Source of the DNA: a virus
IMG/VR virus record: IMGVR_UViG_3300042485_004775
Coordinates: 1-28,341 of that record
DNA: 28,341 nt
Direction: 5' to 3' (one strand)
Shown here: piece after piece, positions 1 to 19,135 of the stretch
How the letters are laid out: the number at the start of each line of letters is the position of its first letter
How positions within the stretch are numbered: position 1 is the stretch's first letter
The notes under the pieces: generated by a model
Database searches by the model: none
What the model was told of the DNA's origin: nothing
What the model saw: only the letters and a program-made list of their open reading frames with translations
Program-made: the position numbers and the translations under genes

Positions 1-354
1 ATGATGGACGCCACCTATTTCCGGAAGGCGCTGGTCAAGCTTATGCCGGGCTACAACTGGACCGTGCATCGTGTGCCGAAGGGCGCGAGCAAGATCGTTG
101 CCACGGGCATTCAGTCCAGCGGCTCCAACCGCCTGTCCACGCTGGAAGTCACCTATGCTCCTGACGACAAGGGCGACTGGTTCAAGGCTCGCTCCGCTGG
201 CTACGGTCGGCGCGCGCCGTGGCTGTATGAGAACGGTGACGCGACCCTGGCACGCGCCCTTCGCGGATTGCAAGATTACTACCGTCACATGGAGAACATC
301 TATCGCGGCCACGCCTGCTCTCTAGAGGCTGGCCGGAAGGCGGTAGCTGCATGA
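1..354 (+). CDS. Hypothetical phage protein, 117 aa
   Basis: I do not recognise this protein. It is a small, soluble, basic protein with no membrane segment or cysteine motif. The reading frame begins with two consecutive ATG codons at bases 1 and 4. No upstream sequence is available, so the start could lie further left and the gene may be 5' partial. Its TGA stop overlaps the ATG of the next gene (ATGA at 351-354), which shows that it belongs to the same translationally coupled early operon. The aromatic, charged composition and uniform high-GC codon use match the neighbouring phage genes. No function is proposed. Confidence 0.7.
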   Translation: MMDATYFRKALVKLMPGYNWTVHRVPKGASKIVATGIQSSGSNRLSTLEVTYAPDDKGDWFKARSAGYGRRAPWLYENGDATLARALRGLQDYYRHMENIYRGHACSLEAGRKAVAA

Positions 355-914
355 AGATCGCCGCGCACCACATTGCCGGCACGGCCGAGCATCGTCTTTC
401 ATCGCTGCTCCATAGCAACCCCGATTACACGCCAACCTGCGCCTGGCCTGACGACTGCGTGGTTCAGTGGGGCAATGGCCTCGTGCCAGCCGTGCCGTTC
501 TTCGAGGCGTTTCCCGTCGGCACTTTCATTCGTGGCGAGGGCGAGACAATCGCGGCGGCCGAGCAGCAGGCATTCGAGAAGTATCAGCGCGACCTAGCGT
601 GCGATCATGTCTGGGGCCGGCATCGAGAAGGCCGCGGCGCCTACACCAACGGCGCAGCCTTCTGTCGGAAATGCGGCGGGTTCCGGGGAAACATGTTTCG
701 CCCGGTCATCGTGCTCGGACACATGCGCAAGCCGCTCAGCAATTGGGAGCGCGATTGGCTCGACGATCTCGAAAACGATCACGAGATGAATGCGCACATG
801 GACCGGAAATATCCCGCTGATGCGCCTGGCCGACGCCGATCCGCGCGGGCGCTGCGCATCCGCTTCAACTTGTTCGGCGTGGCGCCGACTGCAACCAAGG
901 AGGCTACAGCATGA
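351..914 (+). CDS. Hypothetical protein with a CxH/CxxC zinc-binding motif, 187 aa
   Basis: The start is fixed by the ATGA overlap with the gene before it, and its own stop overlaps the next ATG at 911 in the same way. The central part carries Cys84-x-His86 and then Cys105-x2-Cys108 within a segment reading TNGAAFCRKCGG. This spacing suggests one structural zinc site, of a kind seen in short phage proteins of unknown role. The C-terminal 40 residues are rich in Arg and Ala and could contact nucleic acid, which is inference only. There is no membrane segment or signal peptide. It lies in an early-type operon of nucleic-acid-related genes, but nothing in the sequence identifies a reaction. Confidence 0.75.
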   Translation: MKIAAHHIAGTAEHRLSSLLHSNPDYTPTCAWPDDCVVQWGNGLVPAVPFFEAFPVGTFIRGEGETIAAAEQQAFEKYQRDLACDHVWGRHREGRGAYTNGAAFCRKCGGFRGNMFRPVIVLGHMRKPLSNWERDWLDDLENDHEMNAHMDRKYPADAPGRRRSARALRIRFNLFGVAPTATKEATA

Positions 915-1444
915 AGGCGCTCACCCTCTGGCAGCCATGGGCCTCGCTGATCGTCGTTGGCGCCAAGCCCTTCGAGTTCCGCAAGTGGAAGGCGCACCGC
1001 TCCGTCATTGGCCAGCGCATCGTCATCCACGCGTCGGCCCGGCCGATGGTGGCCGAAGAAATCCGGCAGATCGTCAACAACCTGAAATGGGGTGGCGCGA
1101 ACGCGGCGGCAACCTGCCTGCATGTCGACGCGGCGCTGGAACTGCTGATGCCGCTCTACCACCTCAAGAAGCCTGACGGCCTGCCCCTGTCGGCTGGCGT
1201 GGGCACCGCGATCGTGGGCGAGCCGCGCGACGGCATCGACATCGCCATCCAGGACTTCGGCTTCCCGCGCGAGGCAGTGGGCGAGCTGCCCGGCCTGCCT
1301 GGTTTCGACAGCGAGCGGGGCGAACACGCCAACTACGGCTGGCCCATGCTGGAGATCGAGAAGTGGGACGCGCCCCAGCCGATGCGTGGCGCGCAGGGCC
1401 TGTGGAATTGGCCCGACGCTCAGAAATTTGCGGAGGATTTGTAA
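911..1444 (+). CDS. ASCH domain protein, 177 aa
   Basis: The N-terminus reads LTLWQPWASLIVVGAKPFEF followed by RKW, the signature opening of the ASCH (ASC-1 homology) fold, a PUA-like beta barrel that binds RNA or modified nucleosides. Bacterial members such as YqfB hydrolyse N4-acetylcytidine, while others are RNA-binding or of unknown role. Here a lysine (GAK) and downstream Glu and Arg occupy the place of the charged residues of the family. The protein is longer than minimal ASCH domains (about 100-140 aa) because of a central insert around residues 60-110. The ATG overlaps the stop before it, and the TAA at 1442-1444 shares one base with the next ATG. A role in handling modified nucleotides is inference from the family and from its neighbours. 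Confidence 0.85.
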   Translation: MKALTLWQPWASLIVVGAKPFEFRKWKAHRSVIGQRIVIHASARPMVAEEIRQIVNNLKWGGANAAATCLHVDAALELLMPLYHLKKPDGLPLSAGVGTAIVGEPRDGIDIAIQDFGFPREAVGELPGLPGFDSERGEHANYGWPMLEIEKWDAPQPMRGAQGLWNWPDAQKFAEDL

Positions 1445-1683
1445 TGGCGAGACTGAACGATCCCAAAGCGCAGCAGCGCAAGGTCGACGACTGGAACGAG
1501 CGCTATCCGGTCGGGCAGGCGGTCAACATGCGCCTCGACGATGGCGGCACCGCCCAGACGAAGACGCGTGCGCCGGCCGAGCTGCTGTGCGGCCATTCGG
1601 CGGTGATCTGGCTGGAGGGCGTTAGCGGGTGCTTCCTGCTCAGCCGGGTGTCGGCAGTGGAAGGGGAGGTGGCCCATGGCTGA
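1444..1683 (+). CDS. Hypothetical small phage protein, 79 aa
   Basis: The start at 1444 is chosen because a strong GGAGG (1432-1436) precedes it by seven bases and the ATG overlaps the TAA of the ASCH gene by one base. The open frame continues further upstream, but that part only shadows the ASCH gene. The protein begins MARLNDPKAQQRKVDDWN and contains a compact core, TKTRAPAELLCGHSAVIWLE, ending in a short beta-like segment. This pattern is familiar from small conserved phage proteins of unknown function that sit in early operons. The stop lies eight bases inside the next gene, indicating coupling. There is no cysteine pair, membrane segment or signal peptide. Confidence 0.75.
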   Translation: MARLNDPKAQQRKVDDWNERYPVGQAVNMRLDDGGTAQTKTRAPAELLCGHSAVIWLEGVSGCFLLSRVSAVEGEVAHG

Positions 1684-2830
1684 CACCTCTATCGAATGGA
1701 CCGAGCGCACCTGGAATCCGATCGTCGGCTGCTCGCTCGCATCCCCCGGCTGCACCAACTGCTATGCAATGAAGATGGCCGGCCGGTTGGAGGCTATGGG
1801 CGTCGAATGTTACCGGGGGACGACGCAGAAGACGAAGGCCGGCTTCGTCTGGACCGGCAAGATCGCCACCAACGATAATGCGCTGATGGAGCCGCTGCGC
1901 CGTCGCGCACCTACGATGTGGTTCGTCAACAGCATGTCGGACCTGTTCCATGAGGACGTCTCCGAGCAGGCGATAGACCGCATCTTTGTGGTGATGGCGC
2001 TTCGCCCGCAGCACACCTTCCAGATGTTGACCAAACGCGCCGACCGGATGCGGGCTTATGTCGAAGGGTTCAACTGGCAACGGGCCGTCGAGAATTGCCG
2101 CGATGCCGCCGGTTCGTCGCTGATCCTGAAGCACAGCATTGCCGACCTGCGCCGGAAGTTCGGTCTGGCTCAACGGTTCAGCTACGATCAGGATTGCAGC
2201 GTCTGGCCGCTGCCCAATGTTTGGAAAGGCGTATCGGTCGAAGATCAGAAACGTGCCGACGAGCGCATTCCAGATCTACTCGCTACGCCAGCCGCGATCC
2301 GATGGCTGTCGTGCGAGCCCCTGCTCGGCACGGTCCGCCTAGATCGCATTCACCAAACATTCGACGACGGCCTGGGCCACTCTTGGGAAAGCTGCCTGAA
2401 TGGCAAGCGGTTCAATGAGTGGGGAGGTTCGGACGGAGAAGGGGGAGACGTAGACGGATGCCCTAAGGTCGACTGGGTCATCTGCGGAGGAGAGAGCGGC
2501 GCACGCGCCCGGCCCATGCATCCGGACTGGGCGAGAAGCCTGCGCGACCAGTGCGCCGATAATGGCGTGCCGTTCTTCTTCAAGCAGTGGGGAGACTGGG
2601 CGCCGCATGTGGCGGTCGGCAACGAGCATGGCGGGATCGACATGGTGCCGCCGGTTTCGTTCAAGGCCGCCCATCGCTGGCGCCGCTGGGATCACGGCAG
2701 GAGCCGCGTGGCCCGCGCAGATGAATCAGTCAGCGAGTTTCTGGCGCCGGGCGTCATCTCGGTCCCAGTCGGCAAGAAGGCGGCCGGCCGACTGCTCGAC
2801 GGCGTCCAGCATGACGGGGTGCCGGCATGA
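1676..2830 (+). CDS. DUF5131 family (phage Gp37/Gp68-type) protein, 384 aa
   Basis: The N-terminus has the family signature TWNPIVGC, then PGCTNCYA, giving cysteines 19, 26 and 29 in a radical-SAM-like iron-sulphur arrangement. The middle contains LSCEPLLG, and the C-terminal half contains CGGESGARARPMHPDWARSL and VPFFFKQWG, all hallmark blocks of DUF5131. The biochemical activity of the family is not established. The cysteine cluster resembles radical-SAM lyases, so a nucleic-acid repair or modification reaction is a reasonable inference. The ATG at 1676 follows an AAGGGGAGG ribosome site, and the stop overlaps the next ATG. A family insert rich in Gly and Asp lies at about residues 225-265. 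The gene appears intact. Confidence 0.92.
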   Translation: MADTSIEWTERTWNPIVGCSLASPGCTNCYAMKMAGRLEAMGVECYRGTTQKTKAGFVWTGKIATNDNALMEPLRRRAPTMWFVNSMSDLFHEDVSEQAIDRIFVVMALRPQHTFQMLTKRADRMRAYVEGFNWQRAVENCRDAAGSSLILKHSIADLRRKFGLAQRFSYDQDCSVWPLPNVWKGVSVEDQKRADERIPDLLATPAAIRWLSCEPLLGTVRLDRIHQTFDDGLGHSWESCLNGKRFNEWGGSDGEGGDVDGCPKVDWVICGGESGARARPMHPDWARSLRDQCADNGVPFFFKQWGDWAPHVAVGNEHGGIDMVPPVSFKAAHRWRRWDHGRSRVARADESVSEFLAPGVISVPVGKKAAGRLLDGVQHDGVPA

Positions 2831-4032
2831 GTGCAGTCGATAATCTGTTCGCCGGCGGCGCCCGCATGGTGTCGGAAGAGGCGATCGAGCTGACGCTGCA
2901 GTCGCTGCGCGCCTATTGGGATCGGCATGGGCATGTCGCGATCGCCTGGTCGGGCGGCAAGGACAGCACGGCAACACTGACGCTGCTGATTCACCTGATC
3001 GAGGCAGGTGAGCTGCCACGCCCCGCCAAGCTGTTCGTTTTCTATGCCGACACCCGGCAGGAGCTGCCGCCGATCCAGATCGCCGCCGAACAGGTGATTG
3101 CGCTTCTCCGTCTGCGCGACTGGATCGAGGTCGTGGTCGTGCGCGCGCCGCTCGATAAGCGCTTCATGGTCTACATTCTGGGCCGTGGAGTGCCGCCACC
3201 GAACAATAACACCCTCCGCTGGTGCACACGCCAGATCAAGGTCGATCCGATGGCGGAGGCGCTGGGCGCCGCGATCGCGCACATGCCGGGCACGGCGCTG
3301 ATGCTGACCGGCGTTCGCCAGGGCGAAAGTGCGGTGCGCGACGGCCGGATCGAAATGTCCTGTTCCAAGGATGGCGCCGAATGCGGGCAGGGCTGGTATC
3401 AGCAGGCGCTGCCGGAGGCGAAGGGCGTGCGTGGCCGGATCGCGACGTTGGCGCCGATCCTGCACTGGCGGGTCTGCATCGTGTGGGACTGGCTCAAGGT
3501 TTATGCGCCTCAGCCGGAATTTGGCGGATGGCCGGTCCGCATCCTTGCCGATGCCTATGGCGGCGATGATGCTGAAGAGATCAACGCGCGCACCGGCTGC
3601 ATCGCGTGTCCGCTGGCGGTCAAGGATACCGCGCTCGACTATCTCGTCGGTACTGACGCATGGGCGCATCTGGCGCCGCTCAAGGAACTGAAACCGCTCT
3701 ATCGCTGGATGCGCGAGCCGGCGCAGCGCCTGCGCAAGGCCGGCGCTGAGACGCTGAAGGATGGCAGCCTCGCCAAGAACCCGCAGCGCATGGGCCCGCT
3801 GACGCTCGCGGCGAGGGAAGAGGCGCTTGGGAAGATCCTCGATATCCAGGCGCGGGCGCAGGTCGACCTCATCAACGATGAGGAAGAGGCGCGGATACGG
3901 GAATTGATCGCCGCGCGGACCTTCCCGGACAAATGGGACGGCAGCGAGCCGAACGCCGCCGCCTGGCTGGATCGGGTCAATCAGGATGGTTCGATTGAGC
4001 CGATCCTCTTCCGCGACATGGTGGGCGCATAG
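2827..4032 (+). CDS. PAPS reductase / DndC-like PP-loop protein, 401 aa
   Basis: The P-loop-like pyrophosphatase motif SGGKDS lies at residues 42-47 within AIAWSGGKDSTATLTLL, which marks the adenine-nucleotide alpha-hydrolase superfamily (PAPS reductase, TtcA, DndC). Cys133 in TLRWCTRQIK, cysteines 179 and 186, and the pair RTGC258-x2-C261 could together bind a 4Fe-4S cluster, as in DndC and TtcA, which transfer sulphur to nucleic acid. Simple assimilatory PAPS reductase is shorter (about 240-270 aa) and lacks this pattern. The last 120 residues form a helical extension. No DndA, DndD or DndE partner is in the window, so DNA phosphorothioation cannot be claimed. The start is in an ATGA overlap, and the TAG stop shares its last base with the next start. 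Confidence 0.88.
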   Translation: MSAVDNLFAGGARMVSEEAIELTLQSLRAYWDRHGHVAIAWSGGKDSTATLTLLIHLIEAGELPRPAKLFVFYADTRQELPPIQIAAEQVIALLRLRDWIEVVVVRAPLDKRFMVYILGRGVPPPNNNTLRWCTRQIKVDPMAEALGAAIAHMPGTALMLTGVRQGESAVRDGRIEMSCSKDGAECGQGWYQQALPEAKGVRGRIATLAPILHWRVCIVWDWLKVYAPQPEFGGWPVRILADAYGGDDAEEINARTGCIACPLAVKDTALDYLVGTDAWAHLAPLKELKPLYRWMREPAQRLRKAGAETLKDGSLAKNPQRMGPLTLAAREEALGKILDIQARAQVDLINDEEEARIRELIAARTFPDKWDGSEPNAAAWLDRVNQDGSIEPILFRDMVGA

Positions 4033-4703
4033 TGGGCCGCGTTCTGATCGCCTGCGAGCGCTCCGGCGTGGTGCGCCGCGCCTTCGAGGCGGTGGGGCAC
4101 GATGCATGGTCGTGCGACATCGAGGCCGCCGACGACGGCAGCAACCGCCATATCCGGGGCAACGTCCTCGATCACCTCGATGACGGCTGGGACATGATGG
4201 CCGTCATGCATCCACCCTGCACGATCCTGTGCAACAGCGGCTCGAAGCACCTGTATCTCGGCATGAAGAAGGTGAACGGGATCAACCCCGAGCGCTGGGC
4301 GAAGCTGGAGGAGGCCGCCGCCTTCTATCGCTCGCTGCGCGATGCGCACCAGATCCCGCGCCGCGTCGTCGAGAATCCGGTGATGCACGGCCACGCGATC
4401 CGGCTGACCGGGCGCGGGCGGACGCAGTTCGTGCATCCCTATTTCTTCGGCGAGCCCTTCTTCAAGAACACCGGGCTGGAGCTGATCAACCTGCCGCCGC
4501 TCCAGCCGACCAACATGCTGAAGCCGCCCCGGCCGGGCACGGCCGAGCATAAGGCATGGTCGCGTTGCCATCGCGAGCCACCTGGGCCTGATCGCGCTCG
4601 CCGGCGCAGCGAGACATATCCGTCGATCGCCGCCGCCATGGCGGACCAGTGGGGCGCGCTGTTGCCCGACCCGCAATTCGAGCTTTTCGAGGTGGCAGCA
4701 TGA
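4032..4703 (+). CDS. C5-cytosine DNA methyltransferase-like protein, 223 aa
   Basis: The opening, VLIACERSGVVRRAFEAVGH, matches the SAM-binding motif I region of C5-cytosine methyltransferases. HPPCTILCNSG places a candidate catalytic Cys63 in motif IV, and ENPVMHG (Glu114-Asn115-Pro116) corresponds to the motif VI ENV. At 223 residues it is much shorter than a full methyltransferase (over 300 aa) and has no obvious target-recognition domain. Short proteins of this type are common in phage early regions. The C-terminal SETYPSIAAAMADQWG is typical of them. They may modify DNA or a nucleotide, but activity is unproven. The start is GTG at 4032, overlapping the stop of the PP-loop gene. The stop overlaps the ATG at 4700. 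Confidence 0.87.
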   Translation: MGRVLIACERSGVVRRAFEAVGHDAWSCDIEAADDGSNRHIRGNVLDHLDDGWDMMAVMHPPCTILCNSGSKHLYLGMKKVNGINPERWAKLEEAAAFYRSLRDAHQIPRRVVENPVMHGHAIRLTGRGRTQFVHPYFFGEPFFKNTGLELINLPPLQPTNMLKPPRPGTAEHKAWSRCHREPPGPDRARRRSETYPSIAAAMADQWGALLPDPQFELFEVAA

Positions 4704-4876
4704 AGCGCGCCTATTTCACCACCTGCGCCGAGTGCGGCGGCCCACATCCCAACGAGAAGGGCGTGTGCGCGCACTGCGAGGTGACGCACGGCTACGCCAA
4801 CGACAATCGCGCGCCGGTCGCCTTCAGCGATGATGTTCAGCCGACCGACCGCGAACCTTCGGAGATGAAGCCATGA
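4700..4876 (+). CDS. Small zinc-ribbon protein, 58 aa
   Basis: This is a 58-residue protein with CAEC near residue 9 and CAHC near residue 23, i.e. two CxxC knuckles about 14 residues apart, as expected for a zinc ribbon. The rest is acidic and probably disordered. The ATG at 4700 overlaps the stop of the methyltransferase-like gene, and its TGA (4874-4876) overlaps the next ATG, so it is embedded in the operon. A longer frame begins upstream at 4649, but that part lies inside the preceding gene. Small ribbons like this often bind nucleic acid or polymerase; the actual partner is unknown. Confidence 0.75.
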   Translation: MKRAYFTTCAECGGPHPNEKGVCAHCEVTHGYANDNRAPVAFSDDVQPTDREPSEMKP

Positions 4877-5265
4877 GCCGCCTCGTCCACGTCAGATGCT
4901 GCCGCTGCGATGTGTCGTTCGGCTTGGAGCAAACCAGCTACGACCATTTGAAGCGCAGCTCGCAAGAATTCCACTGCCCATATGGGCACAAGCAGCATTT
5001 TCCACAGGGTAAGTCCGAGGTGGAGAAGATGCGGGACCAACTGGACGCGGAGCGCCGACGTCGCGAGCGTGCGGAGCAGGAGAGCGCATATCAGATCGAT
5101 GCGCGCAACACCGCCGAGCGCAGCGCGCGGGCCTATAAAGGGCAGGTTACCCGCCTGCGCAACAGAGCAAAGGCAGGCGTCTGCCCGTGTTGCAATCGCC
5201 ATTTCAGCCAGTTGGAACGCCACATGGCGAGTCAGCACCCGGAATTTAAGGTGGAGGCGGAATGA
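4873..5265 (+). CDS. Coiled-coil protein with N-terminal Cys/His cluster and C-terminal C2H2 zinc finger, 130 aa
   Basis: Residues 9-39 hold Cys9, Cys10, Cys12, Cys35 and His39, a probable zinc site. Residues 45-100 are a highly charged Arg/Glu-rich helix with coiled-coil character. Residues 104-122 are a classic C2H2 finger (Cys104-x2-Cys107-x9-His117-x4-His122) reading CPCCNRHFSQLERHMASQH. Such two-ended zinc proteins recur in phage early regions without known function. The layout suggests a dimer that binds DNA or RNA, which is inference. The start is set by the ATGA overlap at 4873, and the stop overlaps the DUF1643 gene at 5262. Confidence 0.82.
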   Translation: MSRLVHVRCCRCDVSFGLEQTSYDHLKRSSQEFHCPYGHKQHFPQGKSEVEKMRDQLDAERRRRERAEQESAYQIDARNTAERSARAYKGQVTRLRNRAKAGVCPCCNRHFSQLERHMASQHPEFKVEAE

Positions 5266-5837
5266 GCGCGCCATCCCCCACCGACCTGTTCGGGCACGAG
5301 ACCATGCAGCGCAGCGCCGTCTTCAGCGGCGAAGAGCGCATCGAGCTTGTCCGCCGCTGGGGGGAGGGCCGGACGGCTTGCGTGATCGGCTGCAACCCCT
5401 CGACCGCCGATGCATGCCGGGATGATCCGACCACGCTGTGGTGGATCAATTGGTTCCAGCTGTTCGGATTCGGCGGCTTTCGAGCGGTCAATCTCTACCC
5501 CTTCTGCACCTCAAGCCCGGCCGAATGCCGGCAGCGCGCGAACTGGCACGAGCGTGACGATTGGTATGCGCGGGACCAGATGCTGATGACGAACCTGCCC
5601 CACGTCGCCCAGGTCGCGAAGGAGGCCGATCAGGTTTTCGTTTGCTGGGGCAACATCGCGTGGGACGACATGTGGATCGAGCATGTCATCGAGGAGATCC
5701 AGGGCGGTGTCGAGCCATGGCCCGACCTTTGGTGCTGGGGCAAGACGAAGAGTGGCGCACCGACGCATCCCATGGCGCGCGGCAAGCATCGTATCCCGCG
5801 CGATCAGAAGCCGATCCCGTGGCGCTGGGCAGTATGA
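5262..5837 (+). CDS. DUF1643 family protein, 191 aa
   Basis: The signature of the family is clear: VIGCNPSTAD (residues 41-50), then DDPT (54-57), FGFGG and VNLYP (76-80), followed by VCWG-type and WPDLWCWGKT blocks and the terminal region PMARGKHRIPRDQK. DUF1643 proteins are widespread in phages and bacteria and have no established activity. The conserved Asn-Pro-Ser and Asp residues suggest a ligand-binding pocket. The length of about 190 aa is normal, so this copy seems intact. The start is in an ATGA overlap with the preceding gene, and the stop overlaps the next ATG. The 3' end of this gene is duplicated as a decayed fragment about 190 bases downstream. Confidence 0.9.
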   Translation: MSAPSPTDLFGHETMQRSAVFSGEERIELVRRWGEGRTACVIGCNPSTADACRDDPTTLWWINWFQLFGFGGFRAVNLYPFCTSSPAECRQRANWHERDDWYARDQMLMTNLPHVAQVAKEADQVFVCWGNIAWDDMWIEHVIEEIQGGVEPWPDLWCWGKTKSGAPTHPMARGKHRIPRDQKPIPWRWAV

Positions 5838-6022
5838 AGCGCCGCCGGCCGGCGCGTCCACCAGCCGCCCCATGGACGCCCGAGGAAGACGCGAAGCTGC
5901 GCGAGGTCAACGATATCGGCCTTCGCGTGGAATACTGGCAACTGGCACTGCCCGAGCGGCGGGAAAGCGAAATGCTCAACCGCCGCTACGAGCTGGGCCT
6001 TAAACCCCCGAGGTTCCTATGA
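5834..6022 (+). CDS. Small SANT/Myb-like helical protein, 62 aa
   Basis: The start is ATG 5834, in an ATGA overlap with the DUF1643 stop. The protein begins with a strongly basic tail (MKRRRPARPP) followed by WTPEEDAKLREV and two further predicted helices, a pattern like a SANT/Myb helix-turn-helix as found in small phage regulators. DNA binding is therefore plausible but inferred. It is the last gene of the coupled early operon; the chain of stop/start overlaps ends here. The DUF1643 relic continues directly downstream in the same frame after its TGA, which hints that this junction was made by recombination. Confidence 0.7.
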   Translation: MKRRRPARPPAAPWTPEEDAKLREVNDIGLRVEYWQLALPERRESEMLNRRYELGLKPPRFL

Positions 6023-6118
6023 CAGAGCAGGGCTCCAACGCAACCCATGGCGCGAGACAAGCATCGCATCCGCCGGGATCAGAAGCGGATCCTGTGGATC
6101 GCACCCAATAACCCTTGA
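6023..6118 (+). pseudogene. Decayed 3' fragment of a second DUF1643 gene
   Basis: Translated from base 6023, this stretch gives a peptide containing APTQPMARDKHRIRRDQK, which aligns with APTHPMARGKHRIPRDQK at the C-terminus of the intact DUF1643 protein. Over 25 aligned residues I count 18 identities, and the following TGA (6116-6118) sits near the expected end. Nothing upstream of 6023 matches, because the preceding frame is the small helical protein. This is the tail of a diverged DUF1643 homologue, not a recent copy, and it was probably left by recombination when the region to its right was exchanged. No start or ribosome site supports expression. Confidence 0.8.
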
Positions 6119-6173
6119 CCGAATCGAGATCGTTGCGTGATTTCCTATCACCCCTCCCACCACAGGAATTTTG

Positions 6174-7100
6174 ATGACCGATTTTACGCGTTTGAACGAA
6201 GCCGGGTCTATTGTTGTTGGGGAATGGCAAAATCCCGGATGCATTTCTCCCGATGGTGTGGCGATCGTTGGTCATGATGACCGGATATTTCTCCTCAAGG
6301 GCAGCAACGATTATCATGATGCCTACCACCAGGACGTTGCAGAGGCAGACGTCCAGGCGGAAGAGTATCTGAATTATGCCTATTCCGCCTTATCGGCCTG
6401 TAACAATGTCGCAGCAAAATTCCTTCTCACCATCGTGCCCAACAAAGCTACGGTTCTGAATAGCAGTTACCCTCTACCGCTGGGAGCTGGTATTACTCCG
6501 CGGTTGAGCAGGATTCTCGATGCAAAGAAGGGGTACATCCATAGCCCCGTTGATCTCATGCGGGCCGGCGGGGAATGGTTCAGGCGGAACGACACGCATT
6601 TTACCTATGGCGGCAATATCGCCTATGTGAACTTGCTTATGCGCGAGCTGGGTGTCGACGTCGAATTGGGATGGAGCGACGACCTGCGCACCGTCGAACA
6701 TCCTGGCGATCTTGGTGGCAAGTTCGATCCCCCAATGGCGGAAACCGTGCAAATTCCGGGGGGATACCAAGAGAGCGGGACTGTCTACAAGATGGGCGAT
6801 CCAGAGCGGCAGCATACCGGGTCCATGTTCGCGACTTACAATCCGAAATCTTTAGTAGATAAAACCCTAATGGTGTTCGGCAATTCGTTCAGTGAAGCCG
6901 TTCCGAGCTGGGGCATGAGCCCTTATTTCGCACATGTCTTCAAGCGCTATTTCTTCCATTGGGGGAATGAGATCGACGTAAATTTGATCGAGCGCCTGCG
7001 GCCTGATTTTGTCGTGCTGCAAACATGTGAACGGTTTTTGTCTACGCCGCCGAAAAGGCTCTACCCCGAATTGGCGAATATAGAGGGCTGGCCAGAATAA
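6174..7100 (+). CDS. AlgJ/AlgX-type SGNH hydrolase-like protein, predicted O-acyltransferase, 308 aa
   Basis: Blocks in order match the AlgJ/AlgX (DHHW) branch of the SGNH fold. IVGHDDRIFLLKGSNDY near the start corresponds to the usual DGWLFL...ND. TIVPNKATV follows. FRRNDTHFTYGGN carries Asp140 and His142, and FGNSFSEA carries the candidate nucleophile Ser238. VVLQTCERFL is the closing ER motif. Known members acetylate exopolysaccharides in the periplasm. This protein shows no signal peptide or membrane anchor, so it would act in the cytoplasm or be exported by another route. ATG 6174 is preferred, with AGGA six bases upstream; a TTG at 6171 is the alternative. The gene is visibly AT-richer than its neighbours, is not overlapped by them, and is probably cargo. 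Confidence 0.8.
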   Translation: MTDFTRLNEAGSIVVGEWQNPGCISPDGVAIVGHDDRIFLLKGSNDYHDAYHQDVAEADVQAEEYLNYAYSALSACNNVAAKFLLTIVPNKATVLNSSYPLPLGAGITPRLSRILDAKKGYIHSPVDLMRAGGEWFRRNDTHFTYGGNIAYVNLLMRELGVDVELGWSDDLRTVEHPGDLGGKFDPPMAETVQIPGGYQESGTVYKMGDPERQHTGSMFATYNPKSLVDKTLMVFGNSFSEAVPSWGMSPYFAHVFKRYFFHWGNEIDVNLIERLRPDFVVLQTCERFLSTPPKRLYPELANIEGWPE

Positions 7101-13044: not shown

Positions 13045-13083
13045 CCCAGTACGCGTAGTTATCAAATTCTTGGCCTGCGGCAT
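12805..13083 (-). CDS. Small membrane protein coupled to the ejection gene, antisense to the zinc-ribbon gene, 92 aa
   Basis: ATG 13083 shares one base with the TAA of the upstream virion gene (TAATG) and has AGAGGA nine bases before it, so translation by coupling is credible. Residues 12-39 (TGLILFGTGAFAGGLGAFGA, YALIGLVN) form a glycine-rich membrane helix. The rest is polar, Val/Asp-rich and ends in a charged Gln/Lys tail. It overlaps the plus-strand zinc-ribbon gene tail-to-tail by 240 bases, so one of the two may be an artefact or both may be real. No family is recognised. A virion or lysis-related membrane role is possible from position only. Confidence 0.5.
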   Translation of the reverse strand: MPQAKNLITTRTGLILFGTGAFAGGLGAFGAYALIGLVNITDRGRLETVDVRHVRDVVVVHDLSPPVVVDRDKASTVPAIAPQKDEVKQQDQ

Positions 13084-15794
13084 TACTGTGATTCCTCTTT
13101 GATCTTACCCTTCGTCAGCCCGCGATACCATTCAGCAGCCGTCGCGGGATCCTGCTCGCCATTGGCGACGTCGACCAGGAACTGGGTAGAGGTAGCGATC
13201 TGCCCCGGCACAAGCCCGGTCCAATAGCCCGCCACCTCCAGCGCGTTGCGCACCGGCCGCTTCGCATCCTCGCCTTCGATCATCTTGTGGACGTCGCGCG
13301 CAGATTCCACCAGCGACTGGAACGAGCGCTGGATCGGCGTGAACTGATAGTCGAACGGCTTGCCCCCGGTCAGGCCCTCGACGAGCGGCGAGGCCACATC
13401 GCGCACGCCAGGGATCGGGCCGAGCGACTGGAACAGCATCTGCTTGAACGCCCAGAAGCCCCAGTCCTCATCATCGTCGGGGCCATTGCCGCCCAGGATC
13501 TGCGCCATGAGCGGCGGCACAACGATCACCCACCAGGCGCGCGCCAGCACCGCCGGCACATCGCCGACCTTGCGGATGCCGGCGATATCGCGGCCCAGCG
13601 TCCGCTGGCGCTGATAGAAGGCACTCATATAGCTGTAGAACATGGTCATGAGCTTGAGCGCCTGACCCCATTGCCCGGTACCCCGCGCGATCGCCGCGAG
13701 ATCCTTGGGCGATCCTGACCCCTGCGACATGCGCACCGCCTTGTCAGCGGCATAGACCGACGCCTCTTCATCCATCCCGGCGGCCTGCGCCTTGTTATAG
13801 GCGCCGATCCAGGTCGGGACCACGACCATGCGGTCCATATAGCCGATGCCGTGGAAGGCGAACCGCTTGGCCGCGTCCAGCTTCTGCCCGCGCCCCTGCA
13901 TCTGCTGGAGCGTCAGGCGGATGTCGCGATCGAGCGTGTCCATCCGCGATCGCACCTCGCCCGATTTGGCCATGACGGTGTTGAAAGTGTCGATCGGGTG
14001 CGCGGTCGCCTGCGCGATGGCGGCCGTCACCCACTTCGAACCGACATATTCGAAGCTGTTGGAATAACCGGCGAGCTGCGTCACCATCGTGGTGAAGCGG
14101 AAGCCCATGCCCACGACGGTGGCATTCGAGCGCAGCTTCTGCATGAAGGCGCCCACGCCCTCATTGCCCGCGCGCTCCATCGCCCAGCTGTTCGCGACAT
14201 ATTTGAGCCAGGGGCGGAACTGCTTGCGGATCTCGGGCCCGAGCGTGTCGTCGATCGCGCGCATGACGCGCTCGGCGCGCAGGAACTTGTCAGCCTGGAT
14301 GATCGCTTCGCGGTGGGTGATATCGTGGATCACCTCGCCCAGGTGGCGATTGATGACGCCCAGCTGCAGCAGGATCGGTCGCTTGACCTTCTCGCTGCGA
14401 TCCTTGGTCGACGAGGCGCGGGTGCTGGCGCGCGTGTACCCCGCTTCGAGCAGGTCAGACCCCTTGCCGGCATGCTCTTCAGCTGCATAGCTTTTCGCGC
14501 TGTCATAGATGGCGGGATAATAGCCGCCGCGGAACGTGCCGTGCGGCGTCACCACCTCCAGCGCCTCGACCTTGTCCGGCTCCACGCCGTTGACGCGCCG
14601 CTCCATCGCCGCGGTTTCGGGCCAGAGCGTTTCGACGATGTCCCAGATATTCTGGACGAACTGCCAGTCCTGCTCGGTCAGTTCGCGGTTGAGCACCTCG
14701 CGCACCGATGTCTCGCGCCAGCCGTAGCCGTCGACCAGGCGCTGGATATTGCCCTCGTTGCCCATGTTGAGCGCCATGGCGATCAGCTGCTCGCGCTTCA
14801 TCTGGTAAGGCTGGCCGGTGTCACGGTTGAACAGTGCCGGATCGGAGAAGCGCTCCGACCAGCGTCGCAGCTGCTTCCGATCAAGCTTGGCGAACTCGTC
14901 GCGGACACGAGCATGATAGTCCGCGACCATGGCATTCTCGCGGTCCTGCGCGTCGGCTAGCGGCCGGAACACGATCCGGTTGAACACGCCGTTGCTGTTG
15001 CCGGCGTCGAGCCAGTCGAACACCTGCTCCATCTTCAGCAGGGAGGCGTCGAACGCCGCGATCTTGCCCTTGATGTTGTCCCACTGGCTGGGCTCCATCA
15101 GGTCGGACGGCGGGCGCTGCTTCATCGCGGACAGGCCGGTCACCGCCTCCGACACGACCATCTCGAAATCGGCATGCTCCCGGCCATCGATCAGCGTCTG
15201 CTTGAGCTTGCCCAGGTGAATGATCTGCTTCACCGCCTCATCGAGACCGATCAGCTTTTCGACCGTCAGGCGCGACCAGTGCGTCTTGCCGAGCGATTCC
15301 GCGAAGGACGGCGGCACCACGACATCATAGCCCTCCGCCTGGCGCTGCGCGGCCCAGGCCTCGAAACTTTCCTGCCGGTTCAGCGAGCGCTGGGTGCGCT
15401 CCTTCATCTCGACCTGTTCGAGCAGCAGCTGCGCCCGCTCCAGATAATCCTGATCGACCGACTTGACGGTGCGGCGCTTGGCCCATTTCTCCAGCCGGCC
15501 GACCGCCTCATCGACCATGTCGGCGCCGCGCCGGGCGGCTGCGACCAGCGCATTGTTGAGCATCTGGCTCTGCTTCTGGCGGAATGCTTCGTCATGGTCG
15601 CCGGCGATCACCGCTTCCATCGCCGACTTGCCGGCCTTCGCCGCGGCGCGCTCATAGCGGATGATGGCCGAACGGCTGGCAACTTCGCGGACCTTGCCCT
15701 CCATCACCTGCCGCTCGGCCCAGCTTTTCGCCACGCTATAGGGGGTGACGCGCTGCCCGGTCATCCGGCCCAGCACGCGCAGCTCAGCACCCAT
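13083..15794 (-). CDS. Giant ejection (gp16-like) protein, C-terminal part, 903 aa
   Basis: This is a large helical protein with long charged helices in the first 400 residues. A C-terminal region (MTMFYSYMSAFYQRQRTLGR, then AWWVIVVPPLMAQILGGNGP) contains a hydrophobic membrane-type segment, typical of the large internal virion proteins of podoviruses. Such proteins leave the capsid at infection and form the DNA-ejection channel across the cell envelope. Gene order (after the gp14- and gp15-like genes, before the fibre) supports the T7 gp16 analogy. The frame overlaps the preceding 1124-aa gene by 34 bases in a different frame, and homologous-looking sequence continues smoothly across that point. 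The two are therefore probably halves of one gene separated by a -1 shift. The ATG at 15794 is internal to that ancestral gene. Confidence 0.75.
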   Translation of the reverse strand: MGAELRVLGRMTGQRVTPYSVAKSWAERQVMEGKVREVASRSAIIRYERAAAKAGKSAMEAVIAGDHDEAFRQKQSQMLNNALVAAARRGADMVDEAVGRLEKWAKRRTVKSVDQDYLERAQLLLEQVEMKERTQRSLNRQESFEAWAAQRQAEGYDVVVPPSFAESLGKTHWSRLTVEKLIGLDEAVKQIIHLGKLKQTLIDGREHADFEMVVSEAVTGLSAMKQRPPSDLMEPSQWDNIKGKIAAFDASLLKMEQVFDWLDAGNSNGVFNRIVFRPLADAQDRENAMVADYHARVRDEFAKLDRKQLRRWSERFSDPALFNRDTGQPYQMKREQLIAMALNMGNEGNIQRLVDGYGWRETSVREVLNRELTEQDWQFVQNIWDIVETLWPETAAMERRVNGVEPDKVEALEVVTPHGTFRGGYYPAIYDSAKSYAAEEHAGKGSDLLEAGYTRASTRASSTKDRSEKVKRPILLQLGVINRHLGEVIHDITHREAIIQADKFLRAERVMRAIDDTLGPEIRKQFRPWLKYVANSWAMERAGNEGVGAFMQKLRSNATVVGMGFRFTTMVTQLAGYSNSFEYVGSKWVTAAIAQATAHPIDTFNTVMAKSGEVRSRMDTLDRDIRLTLQQMQGRGQKLDAAKRFAFHGIGYMDRMVVVPTWIGAYNKAQAAGMDEEASVYAADKAVRMSQGSGSPKDLAAIARGTGQWGQALKLMTMFYSYMSAFYQRQRTLGRDIAGIRKVGDVPAVLARAWWVIVVPPLMAQILGGNGPDDDEDWGFWAFKQMLFQSLGPIPGVRDVASPLVEGLTGGKPFDYQFTPIQRSFQSLVESARDVHKMIEGEDAKRPVRNALEVAGYWTGLVPGQIATSTQFLVDVANGEQDPATAAEWYRGLTKGKIKEESQ

Positions 15795-18700
15795 GACCTC
15801 GCCATGCGGTCGGACTGGACGGCGGCCAGCGCCTCTTCCTGGATGCTGCCGTCGGTGAACGGATCGCCATAGCGCTCCAGCATGATCTGGCTGACTTCCT
15901 GATCGATCATCGCCTTGCGAACCGACCGCTTGTCGCCATTCTCCCGCATCTCGCGCCGGCGGACCTCGATGCCCATAAGGGTGCGGACCATGTCGTCAGC
16001 CGACGGGAAGCCCGCCATCTCCGCGACGTCGTCGGGGCTGGCGCCGTTCTCGCGGTGGACCGGCGGCACCTGGCGCGGCAGCATGCCGGTGGCGTCCTCG
16101 CCATAATTGTCGCGGACCCACTCGCTGTCCATGGGGCTGACCTTGAGCAGCTGGAGCGCGCGGAACTCGGGCAGGGCGTCGATGCGGGCGGTGACGGTGT
16201 CGCGCACATCCTCCTCGCGCTCGCGCCATTCCTTGGTGACGCGGCGCTTCACCGCGTTCATCGTTTTGGCCAACATGCGGTCCTGCGCCTCTTCGCGCGC
16301 GGTTGCGGTCAGGCCCTGATAGGCGGCATATTCGGCCGCGGTCATCGATGCCGGCTTGTCGGGGAAGAGCGCCTCCAGATTCTGCGCGGCGATTGCGTCG
16401 GCCAGCTCTTCGTCCGATGCGACCAGCCGGTCCATCACCCCGCGGACATCGTCGCTGATCTCGGAGCGCAGGCGCGACACGCTGTTGTAGAGCGAGATCA
16501 TCCAGGCCTTGAAGGTCTGGAACATGCGCTGCATGCCGGGGGAGGGGGCCTTACCCTCCATCAAATACCGCTCGACGCCGCGCGCCCAAAGCTCATGGGC
16601 GTCGACCGGGATCTTGCCATCCTCGATCGGGTAGCCGGCGGCCGCGAACCAGTCCTGGACGATCTGCCAGTCATCGCGCACCTGCTGCGGCGCTTCCGGA
16701 TCGGCAGCATCCTCGCGCAGTTCCTCCAGCCATAGATGCCCGGCTTCATGAAGGAAGGTGGACTGGTCCTGCGTCTGGAACAGTTCGATGATGGCGCCGG
16801 CGCTTTGGCCGCCGGGGAACAGGATGCGACCGCGCGGGCTATCCTCACCCTGCATGAGGGCATCGCCCCCCGACTGTTCGGCGGCATAGGCTTCCACCGC
16901 GGCGCGGATATCGCGGCGGCTGGCCGCGTCCGGATCGATCCCGCGAGTTTCCAGCAGCGCGCGCAGCTCGTTGGCAGCGTCGCGCACCGAGCGCTCGCGC
17001 GCGACTAGGTGACGATCGCGGCCGGCAACCCCTTCGGCAACCGCGTCAAGCAGGTCGTTGGCGCTGGGGCGCTCCGCCATCTCCGGGAAATAGCCCGCTT
17101 CCCACGCGCGGGCCGCCCAGGCGTCGGCGCTATATTCATTCTCGCCGAGGCCGCCTTCGTCAATCAGCTCGCCCTGATCCTTCACCAGCTTGCGCCGGCC
17201 GGGCTTGCCCCTGTGCCAGGCGTCTGCGCCCATGGCGCGCAGGTCGCCGCCGGTGTCGACGATCCCGCCGCCGCGCGCGATGAAGTCCATCAGCGACGGG
17301 CCCAGATTCTGCGACGCGTCCTTCTGCCGCTTCATGACATCGATGGCGACGTCGAGCTGGTCCGCCTTCTGGATCGCGGCGATGTTCTCGGGCAGCACCT
17401 GGCGCACCTGCAGCGCGTCATATTCCTGGCCGGTCAGCTCGCGCCCCATGCGGCTGGCCCGCGTCACGGCGCGCTGGGTCAGAAACTCGGCGTTCTGCTG
17501 CGCCATCGATGGCGACATGCCGGCGGTGGACAGCTTCTCCACGATCGTCTGAAGCAGCTTTTCGCGCGGGGCGCCCAGCGCGCGGGCGGCGCGTTCCTCG
17601 TCGGCCATGCGATCGGTCAGGTCCGCCATGACGTCGGCCATGGCCTCGTCGAAGGTCTGCGCCTCGCGGCGGGACATGCCGCCAGCCGACAGGCGCATAT
17701 CCTCCTTCAGCGCATCCCATGCCGGCGTGCCCGCCAGTTCAGACACGGCCGTCTCGACGGGCAGCACCCAGTCGCCGCCGGTGACGACTGCGTCATCAAT
17801 CTCCGACCGCCAGCGGTCGAAGTCGCCGTCATAGGCGTCGCTCTGCATATAGGCCTGCACGGCCTCGGCGGGGATGTAGACATTGTCCGCGTCGGCATCG
17901 TCGGCCATCTCGCGCACCAGGTCCGCGAAGGCGGCAGTATCGCGTCCCTTGAGCTTTGACACGGTGACAGCTTCCCCCAGCTGATCAATCGCTGCACCTT
18001 CGCTCTGCGCCCGGCGTGAGGCGATGACACGATCGGCCATCTTGCCAGCCGCGCGCGCAGTGCGCTCGGTCGCCAACGTGATGCCGGCGGTCGCGCCAAC
18101 ACCGCCGACGGTAGCGACCAGCGTTGCGGCGGCCGCCTCCGGCCGCTCGGCCAGATATTCGCTAAACGGCTTGTCCGGATTGAGCGCCGCCCATTCATTG
18201 AGATCCTGAAGGATGGTCGCGATCTGTTCGCCGGGGATCTCGGACTTGATCTGATTCCAGAAGGTGCGAAGCAGCGGTGCTTTACCGGCGACGTCGTTGA
18301 CCAGATGTCCGATCGGCAGGCGCTCGGTGGCGACCTCGATGAGGCCCTGCGACAGCGCATAGACACCAGCGCCAAGGGTGGACAGCCCTTGATCGCGCGC
18401 CTTCACATATTCGCCGCCGCCCGTGCTAAGCCCGGCCACACTCGCGCCGGCCGTCGGGCCAGCGACCAAGCCGACGCCAACCGAGGCAAGTGATGTCGGG
18501 ACGCTCTCGATGCCCTGCAGCAGGTTGCGCGCGGTCCAGTTCTCAACCTGCGGTCGTGCGCTCGCCGACATCTGCTGCCCTTCGCGGGCGCGGCCGAGCG
18601 CGAAATCCGACACGATCTGGGGAAGCGTGCGCACGCCGGCGCGGCGCTCCGCATCCGAGCCAGGCGTGAGCAGGCCGATCGCGTCCGCCGCTCCGCCGAT

Positions 18701-19135
18701 CGCGCCCCAGATTCCACTGGTTGCCTGAAAGACGCCAGCCTCAAGCGAGCTTCCGATATTCTTCAGGCCGTAGAACGCTTTGCCGATCAGGTTGAGATTG
18801 TCATAATCATCCGCGGCGACGGTCGCATTGCCGGGCTTTGCCGACCAGCGCCCAACCGCTGGATATTGTTGCATGACTCCCTTCGCCTTTGCGGCGCGGG
18901 CTTCAGCTTCAAACGCCGGGAGATTGCCGGCGACGGTCGATGGCGGGAGGCCGCGGGCTTCGGCGATCGTGCGCGCGCGGGCCGCCTGATCCGGCTGGGC
19001 CACCTTGATCCTATAGGCCAGCTCGTCGTCGCGCTGCTGCTGGAGTTCAGCCTCAAAGGGGTCGGTCTCGGATTGTGCCGGCACCGTCGACCGGCTGCGC
19101 ATGGCGTCCAGATACTTATAGGGATCGGTCGCCAT
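15761..19135 (-). CDS. Giant ejection (gp16-like) protein, N-terminal part with HEAGH motif, 1124 aa
   Basis: Long, mostly helical, Ala/Arg/Asp-rich protein. The N-terminal third has hydrophobic glycine-rich stretches (GIWGAIGGAADAIGLL, GVGLVAGPTAGASVAGL) that may insert into membranes. Residues 793-803 read STFLHEAGHLWLEEL in context, with His796, Glu797 and His800 forming an HExxH zinc-peptidase motif, as seen in large polyvalent phage and prophage proteins. The ATG (19135) shares a base with the TAA of the M23 gene. The end looks abnormal: after AVQSDR the frame runs MARSWVLSCACWAG and stops, while the -1 frame gives HGEVMGAELRVLGR and stays open for 900 codons. The truncation is probably due to an indel or to frameshifting. 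Ejection function is inferred from position and size. Confidence 0.75.
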   Translation of the reverse strand: MATDPYKYLDAMRSRSTVPAQSETDPFEAELQQQRDDELAYRIKVAQPDQAARARTIAEARGLPPSTVAGNLPAFEAEARAAKAKGVMQQYPAVGRWSAKPGNATVAADDYDNLNLIGKAFYGLKNIGSSLEAGVFQATSGIWGAIGGAADAIGLLTPGSDAERRAGVRTLPQIVSDFALGRAREGQQMSASARPQVENWTARNLLQGIESVPTSLASVGVGLVAGPTAGASVAGLSTGGGEYVKARDQGLSTLGAGVYALSQGLIEVATERLPIGHLVNDVAGKAPLLRTFWNQIKSEIPGEQIATILQDLNEWAALNPDKPFSEYLAERPEAAAATLVATVGGVGATAGITLATERTARAAGKMADRVIASRRAQSEGAAIDQLGEAVTVSKLKGRDTAAFADLVREMADDADADNVYIPAEAVQAYMQSDAYDGDFDRWRSEIDDAVVTGGDWVLPVETAVSELAGTPAWDALKEDMRLSAGGMSRREAQTFDEAMADVMADLTDRMADEERAARALGAPREKLLQTIVEKLSTAGMSPSMAQQNAEFLTQRAVTRASRMGRELTGQEYDALQVRQVLPENIAAIQKADQLDVAIDVMKRQKDASQNLGPSLMDFIARGGGIVDTGGDLRAMGADAWHRGKPGRRKLVKDQGELIDEGGLGENEYSADAWAARAWEAGYFPEMAERPSANDLLDAVAEGVAGRDRHLVARERSVRDAANELRALLETRGIDPDAASRRDIRAAVEAYAAEQSGGDALMQGEDSPRGRILFPGGQSAGAIIELFQTQDQSTFLHEAGHLWLEELREDAADPEAPQQVRDDWQIVQDWFAAAGYPIEDGKIPVDAHELWARGVERYLMEGKAPSPGMQRMFQTFKAWMISLYNSVSRLRSEISDDVRGVMDRLVASDEELADAIAAQNLEALFPDKPASMTAAEYAAYQGLTATAREEAQDRMLAKTMNAVKRRVTKEWREREEDVRDTVTARIDALPEFRALQLLKVSPMDSEWVRDNYGEDATGMLPRQVPPVHRENGASPDDVAEMAGFPSADDMVRTLMGIEVRRREMRENGDKRSVRKAMIDQEVSQIMLERYGDPFTDGSIQEEALAAVQSDRMARSWVLSCACWAG

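Follow-up and report, generated by a model that had tools for sequence, protein, structure and literature searches.

The window, meaning the whole stretch of DNA analysed here, is a virus record of 28,341 bases and is probably an incomplete piece of a genome. A plus-strand reading frame at 351–914 is followed, consecutively and head to tail, by the eight genes listed in Table 1. Neighbouring reading frames in the operon share 1–17 nt, so region 911–5837 would be consistent with a single transcript; no promoter or terminator signal above the shuffled background was found in positions 1–7000 of the window. An earlier note had placed five named genes in one coupled plus-strand operon. All five are located there, in overlapping reading frames, and their identities are borne out by family searches (Pfam, PHROGs); the list had omitted the three small genes, encoding proteins of 80, 60 and 130 aa. 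Two of the proteins are referred to below in shorthand, the PAPS-reductase/DndC-like protein as PAPSr and the minimal C5-methyltransferase-like protein as MTlike. Directly past the operon, at 6171–7100 on the plus strand, a 309-aa protein without a PHROGs match is encoded. The minus strand beyond the operon carries virion genes, including those of tail proteins and the major head protein. At 13083–19135 on the minus strand, two adjacent genes encode proteins of 903 and 1124 aa whose matches lie one after the other along phrog_9880 (2231 positions), as though a single giant protein had been divided.

Table 1. Genes of the accessory operon; frame genes belong to its fairly stable part and cargo genes to its variable slot.
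Feature	Coordinates	Strand	Family match or note
ASCH-domain protein, 177 aa, frame gene	911..1444	+	PF04266, phrog_3193
80-aa protein, frame gene	1441..1683	+	phrog_9165
DUF5131 (Gp37/Gp68) protein, 384 aa	1676..2830	+	PF07505; predicted radical-SAM fold
PAPSr PP-loop protein, 401 aa, cargo gene	2827..4032	+	phrog_12882
MTlike, 223 aa, cargo gene	4032..4703	+	phrog_757
60-aa cysteine-containing protein, cargo	4694..4876	+	weak DZR_2, under cut-off
130-aa protein, C2H2-like, zinc-finger-like C-terminal stretch, cargo	4873..5265	+	phrog_33336; weak zf matches
DUF1643 protein, 191 aa, frame gene, last in operon	5262..5837	+	PF07799

The ASCH-domain protein passes the gathering cut-off of PF04266 (24.1 bits versus 21.2) with a partial match that covers only the first 53 of 103 model positions, and it matches phrog_3193 at 101 bits. 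It is kept at 82–98% amino acid identity in four relatives of the lineage. In a passage of PMC12707154, the ASCH proteins are described as including YqfB, a hydrolase of N4-acylated cytosines and cytidines. The 80-aa gene product is 66–89% identical in three relatives, with its position unchanged; the 60-aa and 130-aa genes have no counterpart in the lineage relatives searched. The DUF1643 protein scores 75.5 bits with PF07799 (gathering cut-off 22.5) and shows 80–96% amino acid identity across six relatives. Its predicted model (pLDDT 88.6) has an alpha/beta architecture. The best structural match is the SAVED region of Cap5, with a Z-score of 6.0 that lies within the range of common arrangements and is unconvincing, and a nucleotide-sensing role is not claimed for the protein. 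The titles and abstracts of papers on DUF1643 give no function for it.

The DUF5131 protein matches PF07505 at 314.8 bits. Its predicted model (mean pLDDT 83) has a radical-SAM barrel fold and is closest to spore photoproduct lyase (4rh0, VIA-align; Z 12.3, rmsd 3.1, 204 residues); the next matches are other radical-SAM enzymes with Z of about 9, and viperin, lysine aminomutase and lipoyl synthase stand beside the lyase among the top structures. Three nearly invariant cysteines are arranged as C19-x6-C26-x2-C29, a CX6CX2C spacing in place of the canonical CX3CX2C. Variant cysteine spacings occur in the radical-SAM superfamily. The original assignment as a radical-SAM-like cysteine protein survives these tests. 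Among solved structures, sequence searches detected no relatives of the DUF5131, PAPSr, MTlike and DUF1643 proteins, and a full-text literature search on DUF5131 and on pairs of the operon families gave nothing useful. The window DUF5131 protein also matches two candidate defence models of PADLOC, PDC-M41B and PDC-M30B. DUF5131 and DUF1643 genes adjoin in distant phages in either order, for example at L007:10004-11697 and in Mycobacterium phage Cracklewink (MK977701, 50580-51961).

PAPSr matches phrog_12882 at 723.8 bits and PF01507 at 31.7 bits, above the cut-off. It scores higher with DndC models, namely 86.6 bits with TIGR03183, far below the 290.4-bit cut-off of that model, and 90.7 bits with the DndC model of PADLOC. 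The SGGKDS motif (S42–S47), which follows the SGGxDS pattern of PP-loop ATP pyrophosphatases, is invariant among 28 representatives, as are six cysteines (C133, C179, C186, C217, C258 and C261). An ECG tripeptide lies at 185–187 rather than at the C-terminus, and no solved reductase was matched in the sequence search. The PP-loop assignment of the earlier note survives. Given the intact SGGKDS, the invariant cysteines, the better DndC scores and general knowledge of PP-loop enzymes, PAPSr would act in sulphur transfer and not as a reductase. Phage homologues of PAPS reductase are already known, and passages of PMC11437467 suggest that they deserve study and may have roles beyond sulphur metabolism. 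The usual literature view of phage PAPS reductases, as found in parts of PMC10269572, is that of auxiliary metabolic genes, and PHROGs places the PAPSr family among morons and auxiliary metabolism; together with the PF01507 match, this would make PAPSr an aid to the sulphate assimilation of the host with no link to DNA. Such a role is improbable. The intact SGGKDS and the additional conserved cysteines resemble those of ATP-using sulphur-transfer enzymes, the DndC models score 86.6–90.7 bits against 31.7 for PF01507, and PAPSr genes have DNA methylases, primases and integrases as neighbours instead of genes for sulphur assimilation.

MTlike matches phrog_757, annotated as 'DNA methyltransferase', at 160.7 bits and has no Pfam match, PF00145 included. 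C63 of its PPC and E114-N115-P116 are invariant in 32 sequences; the protein thus possesses the PC and EN motifs of C5 cytosine methyltransferases, and these residues fit the chemistry of such enzymes. Membership of the family is not borne out by profiles, as an hhalign comparison with the C5 set was not significant and the phrog_757 label is the sole support of this kind. The previous description as a C5-methyltransferase-like protein with PPC and ENP holds for the motifs. In Pseudomonas phage PA11 and Rhizobium phage RHph_I3_11, the MTlike gene adjoins ribonucleotide reductase genes, with thymidylate synthase nearby (L374:2029-5245 and L375:1067-3588); these neighbours hint that MTlike may act on nucleotides instead of DNA. 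In Microcystis phage Mae-JY29 (L256:6635-9071), a PAPSr gene is found with a 240-aa methylase gene and an ASCH gene, without DUF5131 between them, and the ASCH protein is 74% identical to that of the window. The 'DNA-methylase' beside this PAPSr was considered as a member of the MTlike family and was rejected on comparison as unrelated.

Relatives of the window were collected using a tail protein independent of the operon (G015 and G016 were added using operon genes), and the whole records were searched for every operon family. The relatives carry differing subsets of the genes. G007 has the order ASCH, 80-aa gene, DUF5131, MTlike and DUF1643, without PAPSr, and G015 has the same order with PAPSr in the place of MTlike. 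In G003, ASCH and DUF5131 are followed by a 663-aa C5 methylase, PAPSr, a 143-aa gene and DUF1643. G002 has ASCH as well, and there an HNH nuclease and an SNF2-type protein (helicase) stand between DUF5131 and DUF1643. G008 (L248:1090-7598) contains an ASCH-like gene, ParB, Prok_Ub, Prok-E2_D, ThiF and DUF1643. In G014, the first gene encodes another PAPS-reductase-domain protein, and DUF1643 comes next. Some records are fragments, in which a gene missing at a contig end is a weak absence; the genes absent from G007 and G015 are missing between two genes that are present, and not at a contig end. On the basis of about six lineage records, a variable slot is enclosed by a fairly stable frame made up of ASCH, the 80-aa gene, DUF5131 and DUF1643. 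Amino acid identity to the window shifts sharply between adjacent genes of a single record, G015 (ASCH 97%, DUF5131 62%, PAPSr 98%, DUF1643 94%), which points to mosaic exchange at gene borders. The slot ahead of DUF1643 in G008 holds a ubiquitin-conjugation-like set within a phage accessory operon, and in one relative (L242:1-1170) a second, distinct PAPS-reductase-domain protein lies immediately ahead of DUF1643.

The preferred reading, to which we give a probability of roughly two in three, takes region 911–5837 as an accessory operon of mosaic make-up, in which a fairly stable frame encloses a swappable slot and the cargo consists of independent conflict cassettes. A lineage of tailed phages would carry this early-type operon, with ASCH, the 80-aa gene and DUF5131 on one side of the slot and the terminal DUF1643 on the other, and recombination at gene boundaries would exchange gene cassettes within the slot. 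The analysis shows directly the frame, the exchange of cargo and the families to which the genes belong. The cargo, comprising cytosine methyltransferases, PAPSr enzymes, a helicase with a nuclease and ubiquitin-conjugation-like genes, would serve anti-restriction or other phage–host and phage–phage conflicts, each cassette on its own, a role suggested by the family names. PAPSr and MTlike of the window would then be two cassettes that are neighbours by chance.

The earlier note had proposed instead a single joint pathway, in which the five genes would produce a DNA or RNA modification or shield against one. The common coupled operon and the ties of several families to nucleotide, nucleic-acid or radical chemistry speak for this proposal, but the genes are gained and absent independently, both within the lineage (G007, G015, G003, G002 and G008) and in named phages, and the full five-gene set was not found outside the window among the relatives searched. 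Independent occurrence of the genes in related phages had been named in that note as an outcome that would count against the pathway, and this is what the co-occurrence check gave; a joint pathway is very improbable. Beyond the lineage, the families mostly do not co-occur across unrelated viral contigs. Among 80 viral loci of each family, PAPSr was found in 2 of the DUF5131 loci and MTlike in one (1/80), and PAPSr in 1/80 MTlike loci. The independence is incomplete, since DUF5131 is present at 20 of 80 PAPSr loci; MTlike is present at 4 of these 80. Searches of named phages returned 12 records for the PAPSr family, 123 for DUF5131, 143 for MTlike, 77 for DUF1643 and 16 for ASCH, counts that are partly listed and, as the E-value limits vary by family search, not directly comparable. 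The pairings ASCH–DUF5131 and DUF5131–DUF1643 were also considered, and their counts were not clearly above those of other anchor sets.

One pair of families does recur. A large C5 methylase (PF00145) lies within 1 kb of PAPSr on the same strand at 19/80 PAPSr loci by tblastn and at 22/80 by profile. The control loci have such a neighbour in 3/80 (DUF5131) and 0/80 (MTlike) cases by tblastn, or 3/160 together, and in 4/80 and 0/80 cases by profile. With near-copies excluded, 17/72 PAPSr loci have the neighbour and 3/139 control loci do (Fisher p about 1e-6); the control loci belong to other accessory genes of similar phages, and relatedness among loci is removed only in part. The C5 neighbour is scattered over the PAPSr tree, with at least 12 changes forced on well-supported branches, so the neighbour is not one inherited block. 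Reciprocally, a PAPSr-domain gene lies within 6 kb at 12 of 80 C5 methylase loci, always downstream and on the same strand. PAPSr is usually directly downstream of its C5 methylase neighbour. The pair recurs in Pseudomonas phages (Dobby) and Rhizobium phages (RR1-A), and in both Dobby and RR1-A the cytosine methyltransferase overlaps PAPSr by 4 nt; in phiC725A, PAPSr comes first, with C5 and adenine methyltransferases downstream. The optional association of the PAPSr family with C5 DNA methyltransferases is real, and the pair is plausibly an optional DNA-modification module. In the open-access literature, mostly at the level of titles, abstracts and selected passages, no description of this pair in phages was found.

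These data bear on a reading in which PAPSr and a cytosine-5 methyltransferase cooperate, the first adding sulphur to phage DNA or a nucleotide and the second marking or protecting the same DNA, with the other genes of the operon unrelated. PAPSr would activate its substrate with ATP and use an iron–sulphur cluster on the conserved cysteines. The enrichment, the scatter on the tree, the reciprocal loci with the named phages and the invariance of SGGKDS and the cysteines all argue for such cooperation. However, most PAPSr loci lack a C5 neighbour, including the nearest relatives of the window PAPSr, which has MTlike in place of a large C5 partner. MTlike is a minimal protein whose profile comparison with C5 methylases is not significant; its family is unassociated with PAPSr elsewhere, and the adjacency is not conserved. 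No gene like DndA, DndB, DndD or DndE was found among the operon genes (Pfam, PHROGs, NCBIfam, PADLOC) in a record that may be a fragment. We consider this cooperation unlikely. The more specific proposal, that a phrog_12882 PAPSr and its neighbouring C5 methyltransferase install a sulphur-containing DNA modification, such as a thiolated or altered cytosine, as a stand-alone anti-restriction module with no Dnd, Ssp or BREX partner, is more doubtful still. What stands of the earlier idea of a modification, possibly with sulphur, concerns the PAPSr–C5 methyltransferase pair and not the whole set: sulphur transfer together with methylation on DNA is a live hypothesis for that pair.

For the mosaic operon favoured here, the consequence is that a tight phage operon alone does not amount to a pathway and that relatives need to be checked; in this lineage the frame persists and the cargo is exchanged. 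A second outcome is a pair open to testing, in which a DndC-like enzyme lies immediately downstream of a C5 DNA methyltransferase. Compared with known systems, the DUF5131 protein has a predicted radical-SAM fold nearest to spore photoproduct lyase, the best structural match of its model, but shares 10% identity with it and has CX6CX2C in place of CX3CX2C. MTlike resembles cytosine-5 DNA methyltransferases (PF00145) in its invariant PPC cysteine and in ENP, which replaces ENV; it differs in its length of 223 aa, the lack of a Pfam match, an unusual motif I and the little space left for the usual target-recognition domain. PAPSr shares the SGGKDS PP-loop and conserved cysteines with the sulphur-transfer subunits DndC, SspD and BrxP. 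It is far under the DndC cut-off, however, and the operon has no DndD/E, SspB/C or BREX partners; according to passages of PMC12707154, PMC10853773 and PMC12839542, DndC-type enzymes work in DNA phosphorothioation with dedicated partners. Temperate rhizobial phages of the vTRX32-1 group (PMC8631192) also have variable early genes, mostly of unknown function, that differ among close relatives and are read as related to host defence. The text of PMC8631192 has no PAPS reductase, Gp37 or ASCH, and the likeness described is one of pattern; the present lineage is described here with a cargo slot inside a specific frame.
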